A stretch of 64,000 nucleotides of DNA. Source: a bacterium. Lineage in GTDB: Bacteria; Chloroflexota; Dormibacteria; Dormibacterales; Dormibacteraceae. Of this stretch, positions 5,683 through 49,183 are shown one piece after another. The position numbers and the translations under genes are program-made. The stretch spans positions 62,001 through 126,000 of the forward strand of contig SCQL01000031.1 in NCBI GenBank assembly GCA_004299235.1, given 5' to 3'. Within the stretch, counting starts at the first letter, position 1. Each line of letters begins with the position of its first letter. Under the pieces are notes generated by a model. The model was not told the DNA's origin and did not search any database. It was given only the letters and a program-made list of their open reading frames with translations.

Positions 5683-6279
5683 TCACCTCCACCCCGTGCT
5701 CAGCGCCCCAAGCAATCTGCGGATGGATGGCGGGCGGTCCGCGTCCCGCACCGGAACGACGCGAGCGAGCTTGGGATTGTGGCGGATCACAATCGCCTCG
5801 GTCGGCAAGCGTGGCGGTTCTTCCACCCTCAATAGAGATCCGCTCTCGGCCGCCGCCGCCCCCTCGAGTCGCTCACCGACTCCACGGATTGCGCCGGCGT
5901 CGAGATGCAGGCCGCAAAGCCCGACGAGGGCTCTGGTTTCAGACTCCCGCTGCGCGGCCAGCAGGCGGGCGAGCTCCGAGGTCTTGCGCGTCACCAGATC
6001 GAGGTCGGAGCTCCGCGGCGGTAGCGCCAGGATCGAGAGCGATTCGGCAAGCCGGCTGAGCTCGAGGCCGCGCCGCGATCAGCCTTCGCTGACCTGTGGG
6101 AGGGCGGCGATGAGCGGCAGCAGGAATGCCGCCTCGGCGCGCATGCGCGGGATCGTTTCACCGACCAGCAGATCGACCACCGCCGCCAGCGCGAGCGGCA
6201 TTTGCTCGCGGGTCGCGGACCGGACGGCCGAGACCGCGCCCTCGATCTCCCGCCACACCTCCGCCAGGGCGCCCCGCAA
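5683..6279 (-). pseudogene. Degenerate hemerythrin-like gene with an in-frame TGA
   Basis: Two open stretches in the same frame (6279-6082 and 6078-5683) are split by TGA at 6079-6081. Read through, they align by eye with the intact hemerythrin domain at 8622-9500. LLVGETIPRMRAEAAFLLPLIA matches FLRDGLLPHAKEEERSVYPAV, and a later helix matches the segment before LLYGLQSLLKAHF. The iron-binding His and Glu residues are lost at each matching place (H to R, E to A), so this looks like a decayed copy. The TGA does not sit at a Cys position and is not a selenocysteine candidate. The alternative is two short unrelated genes. Confidence 0.35.
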
Positions 6280-28313: not shown

Positions 28314-28760
28314 GTGGACGAGGCAATCGACTTCGAGCTATCCGACCAAGACGGCAAGAGTTGGCACCTCGCCGATCACCTTGCCCGTGGACCCGTCCTG
28401 CTCGTCTTCTACCGCGGTGATTGGTGACCCTACTGCAACGGGCAGTTGGCCTCGTACGCAAGAACCTGGGACCGCTTCGTCAATGAGGGCGTGAGCCTCG
28501 CCGGCATCTCGGTCGATCCGGTCGAGAACAACCGCGCGATGGTCGACAAGCTGCTGTTGCCGTTTCCGCTGCTCAGTGATCCCGAGGGTCGCGTGATCAA
28601 GGCATGGGGCGTGTGGACCGATGGCGAGGGCGGCATCGCCAGGCCGTCGATCTTTGCAGTCCGAAGTGACGGCCGCGTGGCGTGGAGATACGTCGGCAAC
28701 GATTACGCCGACCGGCCGGCTGACGACGAGTTGCTCGATTCCGTTCGCGGAGGTGACTGA
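28314..28760 (+). CDS. Peroxiredoxin-like selenoprotein with in-frame TGA (UxxC)
   Basis: The frame runs from GTG 28314 (AAGGAG four to five bases upstream) to TGA 28760 with one internal TGA at 28425-28427. Translated with Sec, it is a 148-aa AhpC/TSA-like protein containing FYRGDWUPYCNGQL, where family members have DWCPYC. Sec38 and Cys41 would form a selenenylsulfide pair. The rest (SVDPVENNRAMVDKL, FPLLSDPEGRVIKAWGV, RPSIFAV) is continuous and typical. A CAAC/GTTG hairpin with loop GGGCA (28436-28448) follows the TGA, weaker than a model SECIS. A nonsense mutation is the alternative, but three further cases in the window argue against it. Confidence 0.82.
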
Positions 28761-36469: not shown

Positions 36470-36501
36470 GCCGCCACGATAGTCGCCGCCTGCGTGTGAG
36501 G

Positions 36502-36517
36502 CGTGACGGAGATCACG
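36502..36517. promoter_or_regulatory. CRP/FNR-type palindrome between divergent genes
   Basis: CGTGA-N6-TCACG lies 33 bases from both the CDP-alcohol transferase start (leftward) and the flavoprotein start (rightward), so one site could serve both promoters. Confidence 0.55.
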
Positions 36518-36549
36518 TTCTCCGCCGGGGTTTCATCGATGATGGGGTC

Positions 36550-37971
36550 GTGGCCGGTGTCTCAAGAGCCGATCGCTACGACCTGGTCGTGATCGGCGGC
36601 GGGTCGGCCGGCCTGACCGCCGCGGGCTTCGCCGCCCAGATCGGAGCCAGGGTGCTCATCGCCGCGGAGCGGCTGGGGGGCGACTGCACCTGGACCGGCT
36701 GCATTCCCTCCAAGGCCCTGATCCGCGCCGCCCGACTGGCTCACGAAGGGCGCCGCGCCGCCGCGATGGGTATCGGGACTCCAGAACTCCGGTTGGACTT
36801 CGCGCGCGTGATGGCCGAGGTGCACGCCGTCATCGCCCGGGTCTACTCGTACGAAACGCCGGAGGCGCTGGCGAAGCGTGGAGTGGAGGTCGCGATCGGC
36901 CCGGTCCGCTTCCTCGACCGCGAGACGGCGGAGGTCGGCGATCGCAGGGTGCACGGTGAACATTTCGTCGTCTGCACGGGCGCGCACCCGACCATCCCGC
37001 CGATTCCGGGACTCGGCGGTGTCACCTACCTCACGTACGAGTCTCTGTTCGACCTCGAGCGCCTGCCCGCGAGCCTGATCGTCGTCGGAGCCGGCCCGAC
37101 CGGCGTCGAGAGCGCACAGGCCTTGGCCAGATTCGGCTCCCGGGTCACCGTGATCGACCAGCGCGGTTCGGTGCTGCCGGATGCGGACCCGGAAGCCGGC
37201 GCGGTCATCCGGCGCCGCCTCGATTCGGAGGGAGTCACCGTTCAGACGTCTGCGGTTGTGACCCGCGTGGCGGCACAAGCCGCAGGGGTGGTGGTTGAGG
37301 TCGGGGCTTCGCGGCTCGAAGCCGACGCCCTGCTCTTGGCGACCGGACGCAGACCATTCGTCGCCGCCCTGGCCCTGGAGCACGCCGGCGTCGAGGTAGA
37401 CGAGGGAGCGATCCGCGTCGACAGGAACCTGCGCACGACCAATCCACATGTGTACGCGGCGGGCGACGTCACTGGAGGCTTCCAGTTCACCCACTACGCC
37501 GCCTGGCAGGGGTACGTGGCGGCGCGCAACGCGCTCCTCCCAGGAGCCCAGGAGGGGTTGCGCTCGAACATCCCATGGGCGGTCTTCACCGATCCGGAGG
37601 TCGCACAGGCCGGCCTCAGCGAGGCCGAGGCGCGCGCCCAGCTCGGCGACGTCAAAGTTCACCGCTTGGAGCTCGAGCTCGTCGATCGGGCGCAGACCGA
37701 GGATGGGCGCGAGGGCTTCCTCAAGCTGGTTACACGGGCGGGCGGGAGGCTCATCGGGGCGACGGCGGTCTCGAGAGCAGCGGGAGAAACCATCAACGAG
37801 CTGGCACTCGCCATCGACCGCGGACTGACCGTATCCGATCTTGCTTCGACCATCCACGCCTACCCCACCTTCGGCTCCGCTGTTCAGCAGCTGGCCGCGG
37901 AGGCTGCCTTTGAAGCCGCCGCCACCGGCATTCGCGGCCACGCCCTGCGCACGATTCGCCGCCTGAGCTGA
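36550..37971 (+). CDS. FAD-dependent disulfide oxidoreductase (MerA/Lpd-like)
   Basis: This 473-aa flavoprotein has the FAD motif VVIGGGSAGL, the redox pair GGDCTWTGCIPSKA (Cys-x4-Cys), a NAD(P)H motif VVGAGPTGVESAQAL, an FAD end VYAAGDVTGG, and the dimerisation end IHAYPTFGSAVQQLA. It lacks the N-terminal heavy-metal domain and the C-terminal Cys pair of true mercuric reductases, so the substrate is probably a disulfide or a quinone. GTG 36550 is the start. Confidence 0.88.
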   Translation: MAGVSRADRYDLVVIGGGSAGLTAAGFAAQIGARVLIAAERLGGDCTWTGCIPSKALIRAARLAHEGRRAAAMGIGTPELRLDFARVMAEVHAVIARVYSYETPEALAKRGVEVAIGPVRFLDRETAEVGDRRVHGEHFVVCTGAHPTIPPIPGLGGVTYLTYESLFDLERLPASLIVVGAGPTGVESAQALARFGSRVTVIDQRGSVLPDADPEAGAVIRRRLDSEGVTVQTSAVVTRVAAQAAGVVVEVGASRLEADALLLATGRRPFVAALALEHAGVEVDEGAIRVDRNLRTTNPHVYAAGDVTGGFQFTHYAAWQGYVAARNALLPGAQEGLRSNIPWAVFTDPEVAQAGLSEAEARAQLGDVKVHRLELELVDRAQTEDGREGFLKLVTRAGGRLIGATAVSRAAGETINELALAIDRGLTVSDLASTIHAYPTFGSAVQQLAAEAAFEAAATGIRGHALRTIRRLS

Positions 37972-38056: not shown

Positions 38057-38905
38057 ATGCCAGTGTCCCGCCGATTGATCGCCTCGATCCTATCCGCGCC
38101 GCTGCTCATCGCCGCCTGTGGCGGGAGCTCCTCCTCTTTATCCTCTTCATCCTCGGAGCACATGAGCCCGATGGCCAGCGGCGAGGCCATGATGATGCAG
38201 CCGGGCGCCGCGAGCATGCAGGTGGACATCCTCTCACCAGCCGACGGGGCTGTGGTCACCGGAAACATCGTTGGCGTCCAAGTCCAGGCAACCGGCTTCA
38301 CCAACACGTGCAACGGTGCGGGCACCAAGGATGTGGCGGGCTTTGGCCACTACCACATCGAACTCGACAAGTCACTCGTGAACATGTTCTGCACGTCCGC
38401 CGCCGCCCTGATCTCCATGCAGAACGTCAAGCTGGGCAAGCACACGTTGACCGTGATCCCGGCGCAAAACGACCACTCCGAGATCACCGCGAACGCCAAG
38501 TCGATCACCTTCGACTACGAACCCACCAACCCGCTTCCGGCGATCACCGACGCCACGTTCAGCGGCCCGAAGTCGATCAAGATCCTGAGCCCGGCCGCCG
38601 GGAGTGTGCTCAAGGGCGCGTTCGACGTAACCGTTCAGGTCACCAACTTCAACCTCAGTTGTGACCTCTTTGGCAAGCCTGACGTCGCCGGTTACGGCCA
38701 CTGGCATTTGAATGTGGATTCCGACATGGGCGCCATGATGGGCATGGGAACGATGCTGGCCATGAACTGCACCCAGACGTTCCACGCCACCACGGCTGGC
38801 ATGACCCCCGGCCAGCACACCCTGATCGCGCTGTTGGTCGACAACGGCCACGTTCCCTTCAATCCTGATGTGAACGCTCAGGTTGCGGTGACGGTCGCCT
38901 CGTGA
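38057..38905 (+). CDS. Met-rich lipoprotein with two repeated GHxHxxxD domains
   Basis: This 282-aa protein is exported and lipid-anchored: signal peptide with lipobox LIAAC (Cys21) and a Ser-rich linker. A Met-rich stretch (HMSPMASGEAMMMQP) suggests copper or silver binding. Two similar domains follow, one with GFGHYHIELD (about 95-104) and one with GYGHWHLNVD (about 215-224), each preceded by an NTC or LSC Cys and resembling DUF4399-type repeats. The next gene overlaps by four bases and encodes a cupredoxin-like lipoprotein. Confidence 0.72.
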   Translation: MPVSRRLIASILSAPLLIAACGGSSSSLSSSSSEHMSPMASGEAMMMQPGAASMQVDILSPADGAVVTGNIVGVQVQATGFTNTCNGAGTKDVAGFGHYHIELDKSLVNMFCTSAAALISMQNVKLGKHTLTVIPAQNDHSEITANAKSITFDYEPTNPLPAITDATFSGPKSIKILSPAAGSVLKGAFDVTVQVTNFNLSCDLFGKPDVAGYGHWHLNVDSDMGAMMGMGTMLAMNCTQTFHATTAGMTPGQHTLIALLVDNGHVPFNPDVNAQVAVTVAS

Positions 38906-39333
38906 CCCTGATCGCGTACCTGCGGGCCGGCGCCGTGCTCGGGGCCGCGCTGCTCGCGACACTCGCATGCGGGGGAGGGCAATCCGCCGGCCAGTCCTCC
39001 TTCGCTCCCACGTGTGCGGCGGTGGCCGGGTTACCGGGAGCAGTGAATGACAAAGGGACCGCCACCCTGGCCGCGGCCGGAACCATCACTGTCGATGACG
39101 AGTACTTCTCCCCCACCTGCCTCACTGGTGCGAAGGGCACCGTCACCTTGACCCTGCACAACCGCGGGCACCTCCTACACAACTTTTCAGTGCCCGAACA
39201 GAGCATCGACGTCGACATACCGCCAGGCCAGACGGTGAAGGTCGAGGTCACCGTCGCGGGCAAACCCGTTCACTTCTTCTGCAAGTACCACCGAGACGCC
39301 GGCCAGCAGGGAGCGCTCCTCCCTGCCCCTTAA
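38902..39333 (+). CDS. Cupredoxin-like lipoprotein
   Basis: This 143-aa protein has a lipobox (LATLAC, Cys23) and a beta-rich domain with LLHNFSVPE and HFFCKYHRDAG. The His, the Cys and the last His match a blue-copper type ligand set (H...C-x2-H) without an obvious axial Met. It would sit on the outer face of the membrane and carry electrons or copper. GTG 38902 overlaps the upstream lipoprotein stop by four bases. Confidence 0.78.
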   Translation: MTLIAYLRAGAVLGAALLATLACGGGQSAGQSSFAPTCAAVAGLPGAVNDKGTATLAAAGTITVDDEYFSPTCLTGAKGTVTLTLHNRGHLLHNFSVPEQSIDVDIPPGQTVKVEVTVAGKPVHFFCKYHRDAGQQGALLPAP

Positions 39334-39410
39334 GGGTGGCAAGGGCGCGGCTGCCGGCGCCGCCGGTGCTCGGAGGGGAATCCGCGACTTGCAGGGGTGT
39401 TAGCAGGGGT

Positions 39411-40076
39411 ATGGCGCGTCGGCGCAAGCAAAACCTGGCTCGGGCCCATCGAGATCGCGGGGGCGCTCACCCCGTGGGCGAGCGAACAAGGCCAGCCCAA
39501 AGGCGCGCCCTGCGGGCAAGGTTCAAGTGGCGATCCTTGGCCTGGATTTGCGGCGGACTGGCGGTCGCGGTCGCGGCCGTGGCGCTGCTGATCGCAAGCG
39601 GCATCAACCACCAGGCACCACCGCTGCCGATTCCAACGGTCGCGGAGGGCGCTCTGGTGCGCGGCCAGCCGCCGGCCGATTTCACCGCCACCACATTCGA
39701 CGGCCACCAACTCACCCTGTCGAGCCTGAAGGGCCGGCCGGTGCTGGTCAACTTCTTCGCCTCGTGGTGCACGCAGTGCGCGCATGAGCTGGTGTTCATG
39801 GAGCAGTCGTACGAACGGCATCAGGCTGACGGGTTCGTCATCGTCGGCGTCAACGGCTTGGAAACTGGCGACGGAGTTGGCTTCTACCATCGGTTGGGGC
39901 TCACCTTCCCGGCCGTCTACGACCCGGGCGATCCCGGCAAGATCTCTCTCGCTTACAACGTCACCTCCAGCCTCCCGGTCTCCGTCTTCCTGGACAAGAC
40001 CGGCCGCGTCGACCTCATTCAGCTCGGAGCCCTCACCCCCGAGCTGCTCGAGCAGGAGATCCAGAAGCTCAGCTGA
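39411..40076 (+). CDS. Membrane-anchored TlpA/ResA-like thioredoxin
   Basis: This 221-aa protein has a basic N-terminus, a membrane anchor at residues 44-63, and a thioredoxin fold with active site Cys120-Thr-Gln-Cys123 (FFASWCTQCAHE) and the cis-Pro loop LPVSVFLDK. It would reduce extracytoplasmic disulfides, for instance in cytochrome c maturation or in the lipoproteins next door. ATG 39411 is chosen because it follows a GGGGT ribosome site and gives a normal anchor. ccdA follows after four bases. Confidence 0.88.
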   Translation: MARRRKQNLARAHRDRGGAHPVGERTRPAQRRALRARFKWRSLAWICGGLAVAVAAVALLIASGINHQAPPLPIPTVAEGALVRGQPPADFTATTFDGHQLTLSSLKGRPVLVNFFASWCTQCAHELVFMEQSYERHQADGFVIVGVNGLETGDGVGFYHRLGLTFPAVYDPGDPGKISLAYNVTSSLPVSVFLDKTGRVDLIQLGALTPELLEQEIQKLS

Positions 40077-40080
40077 ACCG

Positions 40081-40806
40081 ATGACCTTGGACAACGTCAC
40101 CGTTCCACTCGCTCTGGCGGCCGGCGCCGCCTCGTTCCTGTCGCCCTGCGTAATTCCGCTGGTACCGGTGTACGTTTCCTACCTCGTCCGCTCCGCCGCC
40201 GGCATTGGCGCTCACCGCACGTCGCGAGCCTCAGGGACTGTCAACGCGGTGGCCTTTGTGGCCGGCGTCAGCCTGGTCTTTCTCACGCTCTTCTACGCGC
40301 TTCGGACGCTGTTGCAGCCGGTTCGCGGGGCGATCGTTCCGATCGCCGGCGCCCTGGTCATCGTGTTCGCTCTGCACGTGGCGGGCCTGGTTCGAATTCC
40401 AGGCTTGGACCGCGAGTACCGGCTGTTCAAGGCGGCTCCCGTCCGCTCGGGGCCGATCGGAGGCTTCCTGCTTGGGCTGGCCTTTGCCGCCGGTTGGACT
40501 CCATGCGTCGGACCGGTGCTGGGGGCGGTGCTGACCGCAGGCGCGACCACCGGCACGACCGGCAGGGGGCTGATCATGGTCGCCGCCTACTGCGTTGGTC
40601 TGGGCCTTCCGTTCGTGTTGCTCGGGCTGGGGGTTGGCAGGGCGTCGGCGATGGTGGGAAGACTGAACCGGTGGCGGCGGCCGATCGATCTCGCTTCCGC
40701 GGGCGTGCTCGCGGCGATGGGGCTCCTGCTCTTGACCAACAGCCTCACCCTCCTCACCGACTTCGCGAGCCGCGTTCTCCCCAGCGTGGATCCGTTCGGG
40801 CTGTGA
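40081..40806 (+). CDS. ccdA: Cytochrome c biogenesis/thiol transporter CcdA
   Basis: This 241-aa membrane protein has six hydrophobic segments and the two conserved Cys motifs SPCVIPLVP and GWTPCVGPVLG of CcdA/DsbD. It carries reducing equivalents from cytoplasmic thioredoxin to extracytoplasmic thiol proteins. It sits between the TlpA-like gene and a DUF3179 selenoprotein gene four bases downstream, so it may supply electrons to both. Confidence 0.93.
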   Translation: MTLDNVTVPLALAAGAASFLSPCVIPLVPVYVSYLVRSAAGIGAHRTSRASGTVNAVAFVAGVSLVFLTLFYALRTLLQPVRGAIVPIAGALVIVFALHVAGLVRIPGLDREYRLFKAAPVRSGPIGGFLLGLAFAAGWTPCVGPVLGAVLTAGATTGTTGRGLIMVAAYCVGLGLPFVLLGLGVGRASAMVGRLNRWRRPIDLASAGVLAAMGLLLLTNSLTLLTDFASRVLPSVDPFGL

Positions 40807-40810
40807 AGCC

Positions 40811-41872
40811 GTGATCGCACCCTCGCGAGCCCAGTTGCTGGCCGGCCTGCTGGTGGCGGTCGCGGCCGGCGCGGCGGCGCTCTACATCACGCGACCCCCG
40901 GCCCCCACAGCGGCCCCACCCGGAACTCCCGATCAGCTCAGCAGCGCCGAGATCACAACCATTCTCGAGCCCGACGCCATACAGTCGGTCGACCATCCCC
41001 GCTTCGTCGCTGCCGGTACGGCCGGCGTGCGCGCGAACTCGGCCGTGATCGGTGTCGACCTTGGAGGCGAGGCGCACGCCTACCCGATCGCCTTCATGAG
41101 CCGGGTCGAGATCGTCAACGACCGTCTGGGCGGGACCAACATCGCCATCACCTGGTGACCACTTTGCTACACGGGCATCGTGTATGCCCGAGACGTGAAC
41201 GGCAAGACGCTCACGTTCGGTGTGTCCGGCAAGCTCATCCGTAACTCGCTGGTCATGTTCGACCGCGAGACCGGTACGCTCTGGAGCCACCTGACCGGCG
41301 AGGCGCTCGAGGGACCGCTGGCCGGGGAGCGCCTGCGGCAGGTGCTGTCAGAGCAGACGACATGGGGCCGCTGGCGAGCCGAGCACCCCCAGACCCGGAT
41401 GCTCGAGGTCGACCCCGATGAGCTCAGGTTCGATCCTTACCAGAGCTACTACGAAACCTCCGACGCCGGCGTCCTCGGACGCAAGCGCGCGGACGACCGG
41501 CTGCCGATCAAGCAAAAGGTGCTCGGGGTCCGCCTGGGCGGCGAGGCGAAGGCCTACTCGTTCACTGCCCTGGCACGGGATCGTGTGGTCGACGACACGG
41601 TCGGAGGTGTTCCTCTCGTGGTGGTCTTCGACGGCTCATCGCAGTCCGGTGCGGTCTATCGAAGGGACCCTGGCGGAAAACTCCTCACGTTCGCCCCTGG
41701 TCCGGGGGCGCTGTCCATGCTGGATACCGAGACCGGCTCAACGTGGGACGGCCTGTCCGGCAGGGCGACCGCTGGCGCGGATGCCGGGATCCAGCTGGAT
41801 CAGGTGCCCATCACCTACAGCTTCTGGTTCGGGTGGGCCGACTTCTATCCCCAGACTCAGGTGTATCGGTGA
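40811..41872 (+). CDS. DUF3179 protein with in-frame TGA, candidate selenoprotein
   Basis: GTG 40811 to TGA 41872 encodes 353 residues with one internal TGA at 41156-41158 (position 116). Read as Sec, the site is ITW-U-PLCYTG; DUF3179 (PF11376) proteins have a CPLC here, so Sec116 and Cys119 form a UxxC redox pair. The remaining sequence is uninterrupted and family-like (FGVSGKLIRNSLVMFDRETGTLWSHLTGEALEGPL). The N-terminal helix (residues 9-26) suggests an anchor or signal, so the pair would face outside. TACACG-GGCAT-CGTGTA directly follows, loop starting 16 nt after the TGA. The upstream genes encode CcdA and a TlpA-like thioredoxin. Confidence 0.85.
41168..41184 (+). promoter_or_regulatory. 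SECIS-like hairpin after the TGA of DUF3179 gene 1
   Basis: TACACG, loop GGCAT, CGTGTA forms a perfect six-base stem whose loop begins with G 16 nt after the TGA. This is within the range described for bacterial SECIS elements (G among the first two loop bases). An alternative stem GGGCAT/ATGCCC overlaps it. The same 17 bases occur after the TGA in the second gene. Confidence 0.6.
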
Positions 41873-41881
41873 GGCTGGCCA

Positions 41882-42982
41882 TCACGCGAAGAGGTCGGTC
41901 TCCGGGTAGACGTCCGACCACGCGAACCAGAACCCGTAGGTGATCGGTATCTGCTGGAGCGCCGTGTCACGCATCGGGCCAAGGACCGCTTGGCCGCCGA
42001 GGCCATCCCATCTCGAGCCGGTCTCTTCATCCACCATGTCGAGAGGGGCGGGCCCAGGCCGGAACCTCAGGACTGCACCAGCGGGGTCACGCCTGAAGAC
42101 TGCCCCGGACTCGCTGGCGCCGTCGAACACGATCACCAGCGGAATCCCGCCGACGAGATCGTTCACGACCTTTTGCTTGGCCAGGGCGGCCAGGCTGTAC
42201 GCCTTGACGCGGCCCGCCAGCCGCAGCCCGATCACCTTCTCCTTCGGCCCCAGCCGCGGGTCGACCACGAAGTCGGTCTGGTCGCGGTCGACGCCGAGCT
42301 TGGGGCTCCGGTAATACGGGCCGTAAGGATCGCCGAGCAATGCGCGGTCGAATTCAAGCAACAGCGAGTCGGGATGCACGCGGCGCCAAGCCGCCCAGCT
42401 CGCCTGAGTGGAGGCGAGCAGCTGCAGATGCTCCCCCGCCATTGGTCCCGCCAGGGCCCGGCCGGTGAGGTGACTCCACAGGCTGCCCGTCTCGTGGTCG
42501 TACATGACCAGCGAGTTGCGCACCAGCAGGCCCGAAACGCCAAACGTGAGCGTTCGGTTGCCGACGCTTCGGGCATACACGATGCCCGTGTAGCAGAGCG
42601 GTCACCAGGTGACGGCGATTGCCCGGCCGCGGATCTGGTCGTTGACGATCTCCACCCGGCTCAGGACGGATATCGGATAGGCCCTCGACTCTCCGCCGAG
42701 AGCGACGCCGATCACAGGTGTGCGATCGGGGACGAACCGGGCGGCGGCGGCGACCACGAAGGAGGGGGCGTCGATGGCTTTGATCCTGTCCCTGGGCACC
42801 TGATAACCGATCTCGTCTGGTGTCAGGGGGTCGGGCGGTTGCAGGCTGGGATGATCTTGGCCTACGAACCCTGGACCGGTGGTCGCGGGCGGGGGGGCCG
42901 GGCGCGTCACGTAGAGCGCGACCATCCCAAAGAGGATGGCGATGGCAACCGCCATCGCCCGGGTCCGGCCATTGGTCCGCAT
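41882..42982 (-). CDS. Second DUF3179 protein with in-frame TGA, candidate selenoprotein
   Basis: This 366-residue frame (ATG 42982) has one internal TGA at 42604-42602, position 127, giving VTW-U-PLCYTG with Cys130 as partner. The protein parallels the first DUF3179 protein throughout but is clearly diverged (for example LVRNSLVMYDHETGSLWSHLTGRAL). It also has an N-terminal membrane helix (residues 10-26). The two genes meet tail to tail with nine bases between their stops. Such paired recoding in two diverged copies is strong evidence that the TGA is read as selenocysteine. Confidence 0.85.
42576..42592 (-). promoter_or_regulatory. SECIS-like hairpin after the TGA of DUF3179 gene 2
   Basis: TACACG, loop GGCAT, CGTGTA on the minus strand is identical to the hairpin in the first DUF3179 gene and at the same distance from the TGA. 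Confidence 0.6.
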
Positions 42983-43104: not shown

Positions 43105-43617
43105 ATGAGTCAGTGGCGGGCTGGGGTCCTGCTCACCCTTGTCCTCTCCGCCGCCGCGGTGGGCGGCGTTCTCGGCTACCGTCATCTGCAGCCGGCACCC
43201 AACCCATCCGCGACCGCACTCGAGCTTGCCCGATTGGATGGCTCGGGTAGCGCACGCCTATCCGACTGGCACGGCACGCCGGTGGTTGTGAACCTCTTCG
43301 CCTCGTGGTGTCCGGCCTGTCTCGCCGAGATGCCCAATTTCGAGCAGGCCTCGCACGACTACGCCGGGCGGCTCGTGGTCGTCGGCGTGGACAGCCAGGA
43401 CACCGCGGCGGTCGGCCTCGCGCTGGCTCGCCAGCTTGGCATCACGTATCCACTGCTGCTCGACACCAGCCACGCGGACCTCTATGCCTCCCTGGGAGGT
43501 CAGGGCATGCCGGTGACCGCGTTCATCGATCGGAACGGCACCGTGCGGCAGGTCTACAGCGGAGAGCTCGATGCCGCGCTCCTACAGCAGCTGATCGACC
43601 AGCTGCTGGGGCCTTGA
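43105..43617 (+). CDS. Second TlpA/ResA-like thioredoxin
   Basis: This 170-aa protein has an N-terminal membrane helix (residues 7-24) and a thioredoxin domain with Cys69-Pro-Ala-Cys72 (LFASWCPACLAEMP) and cis-Pro loop MPVTAFIDRNG. It probably reduces disulfides, or selenenylsulfides of the adjacent DUF3179 protein, on the outer face of the membrane. It diverges from the second DUF3179 gene. Its last 36 bases overlap the end of the convergent anti-sigma gene. Confidence 0.9.
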   Translation: MSQWRAGVLLTLVLSAAAVGGVLGYRHLQPAPNPSATALELARLDGSGSARLSDWHGTPVVVNLFASWCPACLAEMPNFEQASHDYAGRLVVVGVDSQDTAAVGLALARQLGITYPLLLDTSHADLYASLGGQGMPVTAFIDRNGTVRQVYSGELDAALLQQLIDQLLGP

Positions 43618-46177: not shown

Positions 46178-46726
46178 TTAGCTTTCAGCGATGTCGGGAG
46201 CGCTCGCCGCCCGGCGAAAGGCGGACATCACCGCCTCCACCGACGGCCGGTCGTCAGAGCTGGAGCCGGCGTGTTTGAGCGTCAGGTTACCGTGGCGATC
46301 GAACACCAGGTCACCTCCCATCTGGGCCATGTCCAACTGCCTGGGATGCCAGATCTTTCCCTGCAACGCGAAGCGCATGTAGTCCCAGACCACGCGCGGC
46401 GGCGCGATGGCTGAAAGACCCCTGCGTCCGAACCCGAGACTTCGGTAGCTTCGGCGCTCGGGATCGGCCAGCCACAGATAGGGATGCCTAAGCTGCTCCG
46501 CGAAGCGCTTGAGGTGATCAGGACGGGCAAACGAGATGACCGCGACCTGTCCTTTCAAATTGGCGATCTCGAGGTCGAATTCCCGCAACTGCGAGAGATG
46601 CTCCTGGCAATACAGTCAACCCAGGTAGCGGAGCAGGACCAGGATGGTCGGAGCGCCCAGCAGCCGGCGCGCGGCAAAGACATCTCCATCCAGGGTCCGA
46701 AGGTCGAAGGCAAGGTCGACCTTCAT
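46178..46726 (-). CDS. PRXL2/AhpC-TSA_2-like selenoprotein with in-frame TGA (UxxC)
   Basis: Read from ATG 46726 with TGA 46618-46616 as Sec, this is a 182-aa thioredoxin-fold protein: MKVDLAFDLRTLDGDVFAARRLL, then ILVLLRYLGULYCQEHLSQLREFD, with Sec37 and Cys40. AhpC-TSA_2 proteins have RxFGCPFCREHLxQL at this place. The downstream half (VWDYMRFALQGKIWHPRQLDMAQMGGDLVFDRHGNL) matches that family. Read without Sec, the downstream part would need a TTG start in mid-domain. GTG 46771 is an alternative start. The hairpin after the TGA is weak by eye. Confidence 0.8.
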
Positions 46727-46823
46727 CCAACGTCCGATCCCACGCCTGGCCCAACGTAACAGCTTTGTCACATTGCATCGCTACGGTCACCTCATCTGGA
46801 AACCAGTCATTGGAGGTGACTCG

Positions 46824-48068: not shown

Positions 48069-49183
48069 TGCCCGCGCGGATCAACACCATCGCGGCCCGC
48101 ATCGCGCTGGCGGCTATCGCCATCGCCGTCCTGGTGGCCGGGGTCGTGGTGGGCGGCGTGCTCCTAATCGGCCGGGCCACATTCGAGGCGCTCATGGCGC
48201 AGCACGGTACCGCCGCCGCGACCTCGTATGCGATGTTCGACGCATCGGTCACCCGAGTCGTCGTCATCGCCGCGGCGATCGCCCTGGTGGGAGCGTTGGC
48301 GCTTGCCTTTGTGGCGGCGCGACTGATCGAACAACCGCTGGCCGAGGTCGCCCAAGCAGCTCGAAGGGTCGCGACCGGCAGCTTCGGCGTCCGGGTTACC
48401 CGGCCTCGATCGCGCGAGCTCGCGTCCCTTGCCGACTCGTTCAACCAGATGGCCGCCGCCCTCGAGGACCAGGAGCGGCACCGCCGCGATCTGATCCTCA
48501 ACTTCGCCCATGAGCTGCGCACTCCCCTGACCAACCTTCATGGCTACCTCAGCGCGATGAGCGAAGGCGTGGTCGCCGCGGGGCCCGGCTCCTATGCCTC
48601 CCTGCAGGAGGAGGTCGACCGCTTACGCAGGCTCTCACGCTCGCTTGACATCCTGGCGGATGGGGGTCGCCCGAGCGCCGATCTGGTCGAGGTTGACCTG
48701 ATCCCAATTCTCACCGGCCTCGTCGATTTGCATCGCCCGGCGTTCGCCGGCCGCGGCCTCCATGTGGAGACACGATTGCCACCCCGGCTGCGGGCGCGCG
48801 CCAACGCCGACGCGCTGGCGCAGATCCTCAGCAACCTGCTCCAGAACGCGGGTCGCTACACACCGCAGGGCGGAACCGTCCTGGTGCATGCCCAGACCGA
48901 GCAGGACAGCGTTCTCGTGTCGATCGCCAACTCCGGAGACGGCATCCCGTCAGAAGATCTGATCCACGTGTTTGAACGGTTCTATCGAGTCGATAAGTCG
49001 CGCGATCTCGACCGTGGTGGCGCCGGGATCGGTCTCGCGGTCGTCAAGGAGCTGGTCGAGGCGGCCGGCGGGCGCGTCGGCGTCGAGTCGCGGCCGGGCC
49101 AGACCCTTTTCTGGTTCAGGCTGCCGAGCTGGTCAGCACCCTTCGGCGCGCCCGACCCGACCGCTCTCCGCCGCCCGCCGTGA
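48068..49183 (+). CDS. Membrane sensor histidine kinase
   Basis: This 371-aa kinase has two membrane helices (about 10-36 and 62-84) with only a short outside loop of about 25 residues. A HAMP domain (85-137) follows, then a HisKA domain with the phospho-acceptor in NFAHELRTPLTNLHGYL, and an ATPase domain with N, G1 and G2 boxes (NLLQNAGRYTP, GDGIPSE, GGAGIGLAVVKELV). The small outside loop suggests intramembrane sensing. It is coupled to the OmpR-type gene. Confidence 0.92.
   Translation: MPARINTIAARIALAAIAIAVLVAGVVVGGVLLIGRATFEALMAQHGTAAATSYAMFDASVTRVVVIAAAIALVGALALAFVAARLIEQPLAEVAQAARRVATGSFGVRVTRPRSRELASLADSFNQMAAALEDQERHRRDLILNFAHELRTPLTNLHGYLSAMSEGVVAAGPGSYASLQEEVDRLRRLSRSLDILADGGRPSADLVEVDLIPILTGLVDLHRPAFAGRGLHVETRLPPRLRARANADALAQILSNLLQNAGRYTPQGGTVLVHAQTEQDSVLVSIANSGDGIPSEDLIHVFERFYRVDKSRDLDRGGAGIGLAVVKELVEAAGGRVGVESRPGQTLFWFRLPSWSAPFGAPDPTALRRPP

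Follow-up and report, generated by a model that had tools for sequence, protein, structure and literature searches.

A tail-to-tail pair of DUF3179 genes in a Dormibacteraceae genome whose in-frame UGA codons very probably encode selenocysteine

Two neighbouring genes of the DUF3179 family, here called A and B, lie tail to tail in a bacterial genome of the family Dormibacteraceae, and apart from one internal TGA codon each has an uninterrupted reading frame. Does this codon end the protein, or is it read? We analysed the locus within a stretch of 64,000 nucleotides (the window; contig SCQL01000031.1 of assembly GCA_004299235.1, positions 62,001 to 126,000), whose relevant features are collected in Table 1. 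The sequence evidence makes it very likely, with a probability that we put at roughly 0.93, that UGA encodes selenocysteine (Sec) in both genes and that A and B represent a duplicated pair of DUF3179 selenoproteins.

A sequence-only reading had drawn attention to the pair, and its description of the coordinates and gene order is confirmed; the two copies are 57% identical. Translation and alignment likewise bear out that the single in-frame TGA falls on the same residue in both genes, where relatives carry the first Cys of CPLC, and that more than 230 family codons follow intact in each copy. With TGA read through, PF11376 (DUF3179) was matched over its full length by gene A (E 2.3e-82, 277 bits, model positions 2-292 of 292) and gene B (E 1.1e-75, 255 bits, positions 1-292), the curated cut-off being 27 bits; no NCBIfam model catches either protein. 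A six-frame family search of the genome (2.87 Mb in 100 contigs, 97% complete) recovered exactly these two DUF3179 copies, each with one internal TGA. The terminal stop codon of both genes is TGA as well, in keeping with the earlier statement that TGA is a normal stop here and the code standard, and a non-standard-code reading is rejected. Aligning homologues, as had been proposed, showed UGA or Cys at the column of residue 116 (C116) in all 33 relatives aligned; across the sequences examined this column holds UGA in 22 cases and Cys in 34. Each protein has no cysteines other than the Sec site and the Cys at +3 (in our Cys listing the last position stands for the terminal TGA, translated as C).

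Table 1. Positions of the genes, UGA codons and RNA hairpins discussed in the text, numbered from the first letter of the window
Feature	Position	Strand	Evidence and remarks
Putative DUF3179 selenoprotein gene A	40811..41872	+	353 aa with Sec at 116; PF11376 read-through match
Putative Sec codon TGA of gene A, motif TW-U-PLC	41156..41158	+	Translation; Cys/Sec-invariant column in relatives
Putative DUF3179 selenoprotein gene B	41882..42982	-	366 aa with Sec at 127; PF11376 read-through match
Putative Sec codon TGA of gene B, motif TW-U-PLC	42602..42604	-	Translation
Bacterial SECIS hairpin of gene A, CGGGCAU-CGUGU-AUGCCCG	41172..41190	+	Fits bSECIS model of PMC13188914
Bacterial SECIS hairpin of gene B, sequence identical to that of gene A	42570..42588	-	Fold and comparison
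Peroxiredoxin-like AhpC/TSA selenoprotein candidate	28317..28760	+	TGA 28425-28427, FYRGDW-U-PYC; PF00578 1.6e-30 read through
SelL-related redox selenoprotein candidate, 5' end not fixed	46178..46780	-	TGA 46618-46616, LLRYLG-U-LYC
ResA/TlpA-like thioredoxin-fold thiol-disulfide oxidoreductase, FASWCTQC	39336..40076	+	AhpC-TSA PF00578 1.3e-16
DsbD/CcdA-type membrane reductant transporter	39784..40806	+	PF02683 2.6e-9
Second TlpA/DsbE-like thioredoxin-fold protein, FASWCPAC	43105..43617	+	PF00578 2.2e-16

Can the organism decode UGA as Sec? A genome search for selA, selB, selD and tRNA-Sec, suggested by the sequence-only reading as a check, found all of them above their curated cut-offs; their absence, which that reading had named as refuting it, is thereby excluded. 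Profile searches located SelA at C1:80065 (492 bits, cut-off 268), with SelB following immediately at C1:81450 (353 bits, cut-off 242), SelD at C9:225013-225951 (L021; 364 bits, cut-off 125) and a tRNA-Sec with anticodon TCA (UCA) at C15:9492 (68.6 bits, cut-off 47). SelD is itself a selenoprotein candidate, with one in-frame UGA in GAG-U-ACK.

Both UGA codons are followed at the same distance by the same hairpin. From UGA onward the two genes read UGACC(A/G)CU(U/C)UGCUACA-CGGGCAU-CGUGU-AUGCCCG, giving a stem with 7 of 7 base pairs and a 5-nt loop, CGUGU, with G at loop position 2 and then U; the spacing from UGA to the apical loop is 20 nt. Folding energies run from -11.0 (hairpin alone) to -18.5 kcal/mol, and from -13 to -18 over 48 nt. 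The published bSECIS model specifies a loop of 3-9 nt with G in its first two positions, a stem of 4-16 bp, a spacing of 16-37 nt and a minimum free energy of at most -7.5 kcal/mol (PMC13188914), and the hairpins of A and B lie within every one of these bounds. Dinucleotide shuffles of single sequences yielded only modest z-scores, from -1 to -1.8, and the case for a SECIS element is therefore carried by comparison rather than by energy. Across 11 Sec-form genes, drawn from a number of genera and phyla, 77 of 77 stem cells are paired, with compensatory changes at three of the seven stem pairs (GC to UA; CG to AU or UA; AU to GC); the eight doubly changed cells were equalled in 0 of 500 shuffles, and slid controls failed too. 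At the same place Cys forms pair at a mean of 2.8 of 7 positions (n=34), as against 5.7 of 7 in Sec forms (n=22), and those Sec forms that have fewer pairs in this register mostly fold a hairpin of slightly different shape near this position. Codon choice points in the same direction: hairpin codons are identical between A and B at 7 of 7 positions, as against 55% of the identical residues outside the hairpin (P=0.018), conservation is similar relative to a Chloroflexi gene (P=0.016 and 0.005), and synonymous recoding produced an equally good hairpin in about 2% of trials.

UGA at this column is not confined to the present genome. Named records from Dehalococcoidia, another Chloroflexi, Acidobacteria and a Planctomycetota MAG carry it, and SelB was found in all four named Sec relatives. 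In a sample of 400 genomes of the same phylum, DUF3179 occurs in 80, and at least 13 have UGA-containing copies; SelA is present in 13 of 13 such genomes, a coincidence that says little by itself because SelA exceeds its cut-off in 321 of the 400 (chance about 0.06). Two TAG-containing DUF3179 matches (G259:C42 and G097:C73) have Cys at the motif column, so that their stop lies elsewhere. Some Sec forms depart from the U-P-L-C pattern: one from Acidobacteriota (L056, 5786-5833) and one from Planctomycetota (L058, 6247-6294) read UPLA, the +3 Cys being replaced by Ala, with UGA and SECIS retained, and a second Sec subgroup (L065, L068, L069) reads U-T-L-C (AYUTLCG), the hairpin being less regular in two of its three members.

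How, then, did two adjacent genes come to share the codon? In a tree computed with the Sec/Cys column masked, A and B are sister paralogues within the Sec part (SH-aLRT 99), whereas 35 Cys forms make up one strongly supported clade; the Sec forms fall outside it, along with one odd, long-branched Cys row (L079). The pair was therefore most likely duplicated from a gene that already had Sec; a single inherited UGA retained by both copies, rather than two gains, is the most likely history. The argument that independent nonsense mutations at one codon are improbable, on which the sequence-only reading had leaned, is thus not literally applicable to sister copies, and its place is taken by retention of UGA in both after duplication and by its spread across phyla. 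Among 42 genomes of the same taxonomic family, ours alone has a DUF3179 gene (0 of 41 others), which suggests either horizontal gain by a lineage already able to decode Sec or repeated loss; contamination is an unlikely source of the pair, given a contig of more than 360 kb.

Could the codons instead be true nonsense mutations in decaying pseudogenes? TGA is, after all, the normal stop of both genes. Yet the copies have diverged by 43% and keep the same single UGA, the reading frame beyond it is intact in each, about 20 relatives, other phyla included, have UGA at this codon, and the hairpin has undergone compensatory changes, so that we consider decay highly improbable. An equally slim chance attaches to a reading of UGA as Trp or Cys, by suppression or a change of code and without selenium. 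Relatives do have Cys at the column, and near-cognate reading of UGA is possible in principle, but UGA terminates these same genes, the selA/selB/selD/tRNA-Sec set is complete, and a SECIS element would have no point. Insertion of Sec is very strongly supported because three things coincide: the full decoding machinery, a covarying SECIS element and the recurrence of UGA in this column across many lineages.

What this residue does is a separate matter. An AlphaFold model (mean pLDDT 90.7, pTM 0.85) is beta-rich, with Sec at a strand end; its halves, at residues of about 78-200 and 236-352, are homologous to each other (39% identity, E 1e-25), and only the first has UxxC, the second being without the motif. 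A PDB sequence search with the protein (P0001) gave no match. Among solved structures the model finds its best matches, weak but consistent ones, in Rieske ferredoxins and Rieske proteins; they cover about 90 residues (probability up to 0.99, E 0.04-0.5, target TM-score about 0.5-0.6). It is conceivable, on account of these matches, that UxxC belongs to a degenerate Rieske-like domain and serves metal or cluster binding, or a metal/metalloid site, rather than thiol oxidoreduction, the more so as CPLCxxGxVY of DUF3179 resembles the second Rieske loop, CPxHGxxF. We regard such a site as improbable, however: the E-values are 0.04 or worse over a short match, the alignment of relatives contains neither the CxH motif nor a conserved His pair corresponding to the Rieske ligands (CxH...CxxH), and we know of no Rieske-type cluster ligated by Sec. 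Since the cluster ligands are absent, DUF3179 is not filed as Rieske here. A combined picture, in which DUF3179 has a Rieske-like beta fold of two repeats and no cluster, bears an envelope Sec/Cys-Pro-Leu-Cys redox centre and possesses an ancient Sec clade separate from the Cys clade, appears to us doubtful as a whole; if it is true, this selenoprotein oxidoreductase would have a fold that is not of the thioredoxin class.

How might a DUF3179 selenoprotein of this kind operate? We envision that SelB delivers Sec-tRNA(UCA) to the internal UGA, directed by the SECIS hairpin just downstream, and that Sec would thereby take the place of the first Cys in the CPLC of the family. Both proteins start with an N-terminal hydrophobic segment, and several relatives have lipoprotein-like starts; the product may thus be exported and held at the membrane by this anchor, with an envelope location. 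A single redox centre, Sec116-Pro-Leu-Cys119, would belong to the first of its two beta-rich halves, and the motif and the Sec/Cys exchange suggest redox activity of UxxC. Its most likely role is that of an envelope selenol/thiol oxidoreductase, which would form an intramolecular Se-S bond in its cycle and regain its reduced state from the DsbD/CcdA and thioredoxin-like proteins encoded alongside. A Se-S bond with the +3 Cys cannot serve all members, because the two UxxA relatives lack that Cys. We hold the chances of an oxidoreductase role with these adjacent partners to be evenly balanced. The thioredoxin-fold protein upstream of the DsbD/CcdA gene is a possible electron partner; it matches the ResA model at 5.6e-23, below the model cut-off, as does its counterpart beyond gene B the DsbE model (4.4e-17, also below cut-off), and the DsbD/CcdA gene probably starts near 40078. 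Nothing obvious is shared among the neighbours of six Sec-form loci, and the local thioredoxin and DsbD partners are therefore offered as a suggestion only. Upstream of this redox cluster lie, on the plus strand, a MerA/dihydrolipoamide-dehydrogenase-like flavoprotein gene (36496-37971, below the MerA cut-off) and a gene for a cupredoxin-like protein (38902-39333).

The window holds further UGA-containing candidates. The peroxiredoxin-like AhpC/TSA gene, of a selenoprotein kind already known, has a possible SECIS hairpin (ACGGGC-AGUUG-GCCuCGU), and the SelL-related gene, which scores 120.2 bits against the curated cut-off of 120 for NF040769, has another (UCUCGC-AGUU-GCGGGA); together with the DUF3179 pair, four UGA redox genes thus lie within 18.5 kb. 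A codon-bias scan of the window also flagged UGA at 6081 and 8624, which look like ordinary gene ends, and at 48952, where a selenoprotein codon is unsupported. Like A and B, the Prx-like thiol:disulfide oxidoreductase selenoproteins (PF00578, UxxC) and the SelL-related proteins are UGA-encoded UxxC redox genes, but they have the thioredoxin fold, whereas DUF3179 is a two-repeat, beta-rich protein without sequence relation to them.

Is the family new? The sequence-only reading had called it a possible undescribed selenoprotein family, of which the selenoprotein part holds and the undescribed part does not: a 'DUF3179 domain-containing protein' (PF11376, UxxC/T) appears in the prokaryotic selenoprotein catalogues PMC9312934 (2022) and PMC13188914 (2026). 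The former credits it to Zhang & Gladyshev 2007, Nucleic Acids Research, a study of the deltaproteobacterial symbiont of the worm Olavius algarvensis. The catalogued protein and A and B share the Pfam family, the UxxC Sec motif and one Sec per protein; the catalogues provide a motif and an example accession, whereas the present genome has two adjacent paralogues with a covarying SECIS, and the Sec clade described here spans Chloroflexota, Acidobacteriota and Planctomycetota, UxxA forms included. Cys forms of DUF3179 (CPLCNTA, PF11376) have the same length, domain and most other conserved columns, but differ in carrying Cys at the Sec column, in forming their own strongly supported clade and in being without the hairpin. 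It is well supported, then, that A and B constitute a new pair in an already known selenoprotein family. Possible additions to what is known of it are the adjacent duplicate, a SECIS with covariation, the wide occurrence of the Sec clade, UxxA forms next to the listed UxxC/T, and an architecture of two repeats that faintly recalls Rieske proteins.

For the family, these findings depict an old Sec-bearing DUF3179 clade that is found in several phyla, has a clear SECIS element and is present in several copies in some genomes. Where annotation treats UGA as a stop only, each of these genes is split into two fragments labelled hypothetical. Being compact, with Sec and one Cys only, these proteins should lend themselves well to work on the biochemical role of DUF3179.
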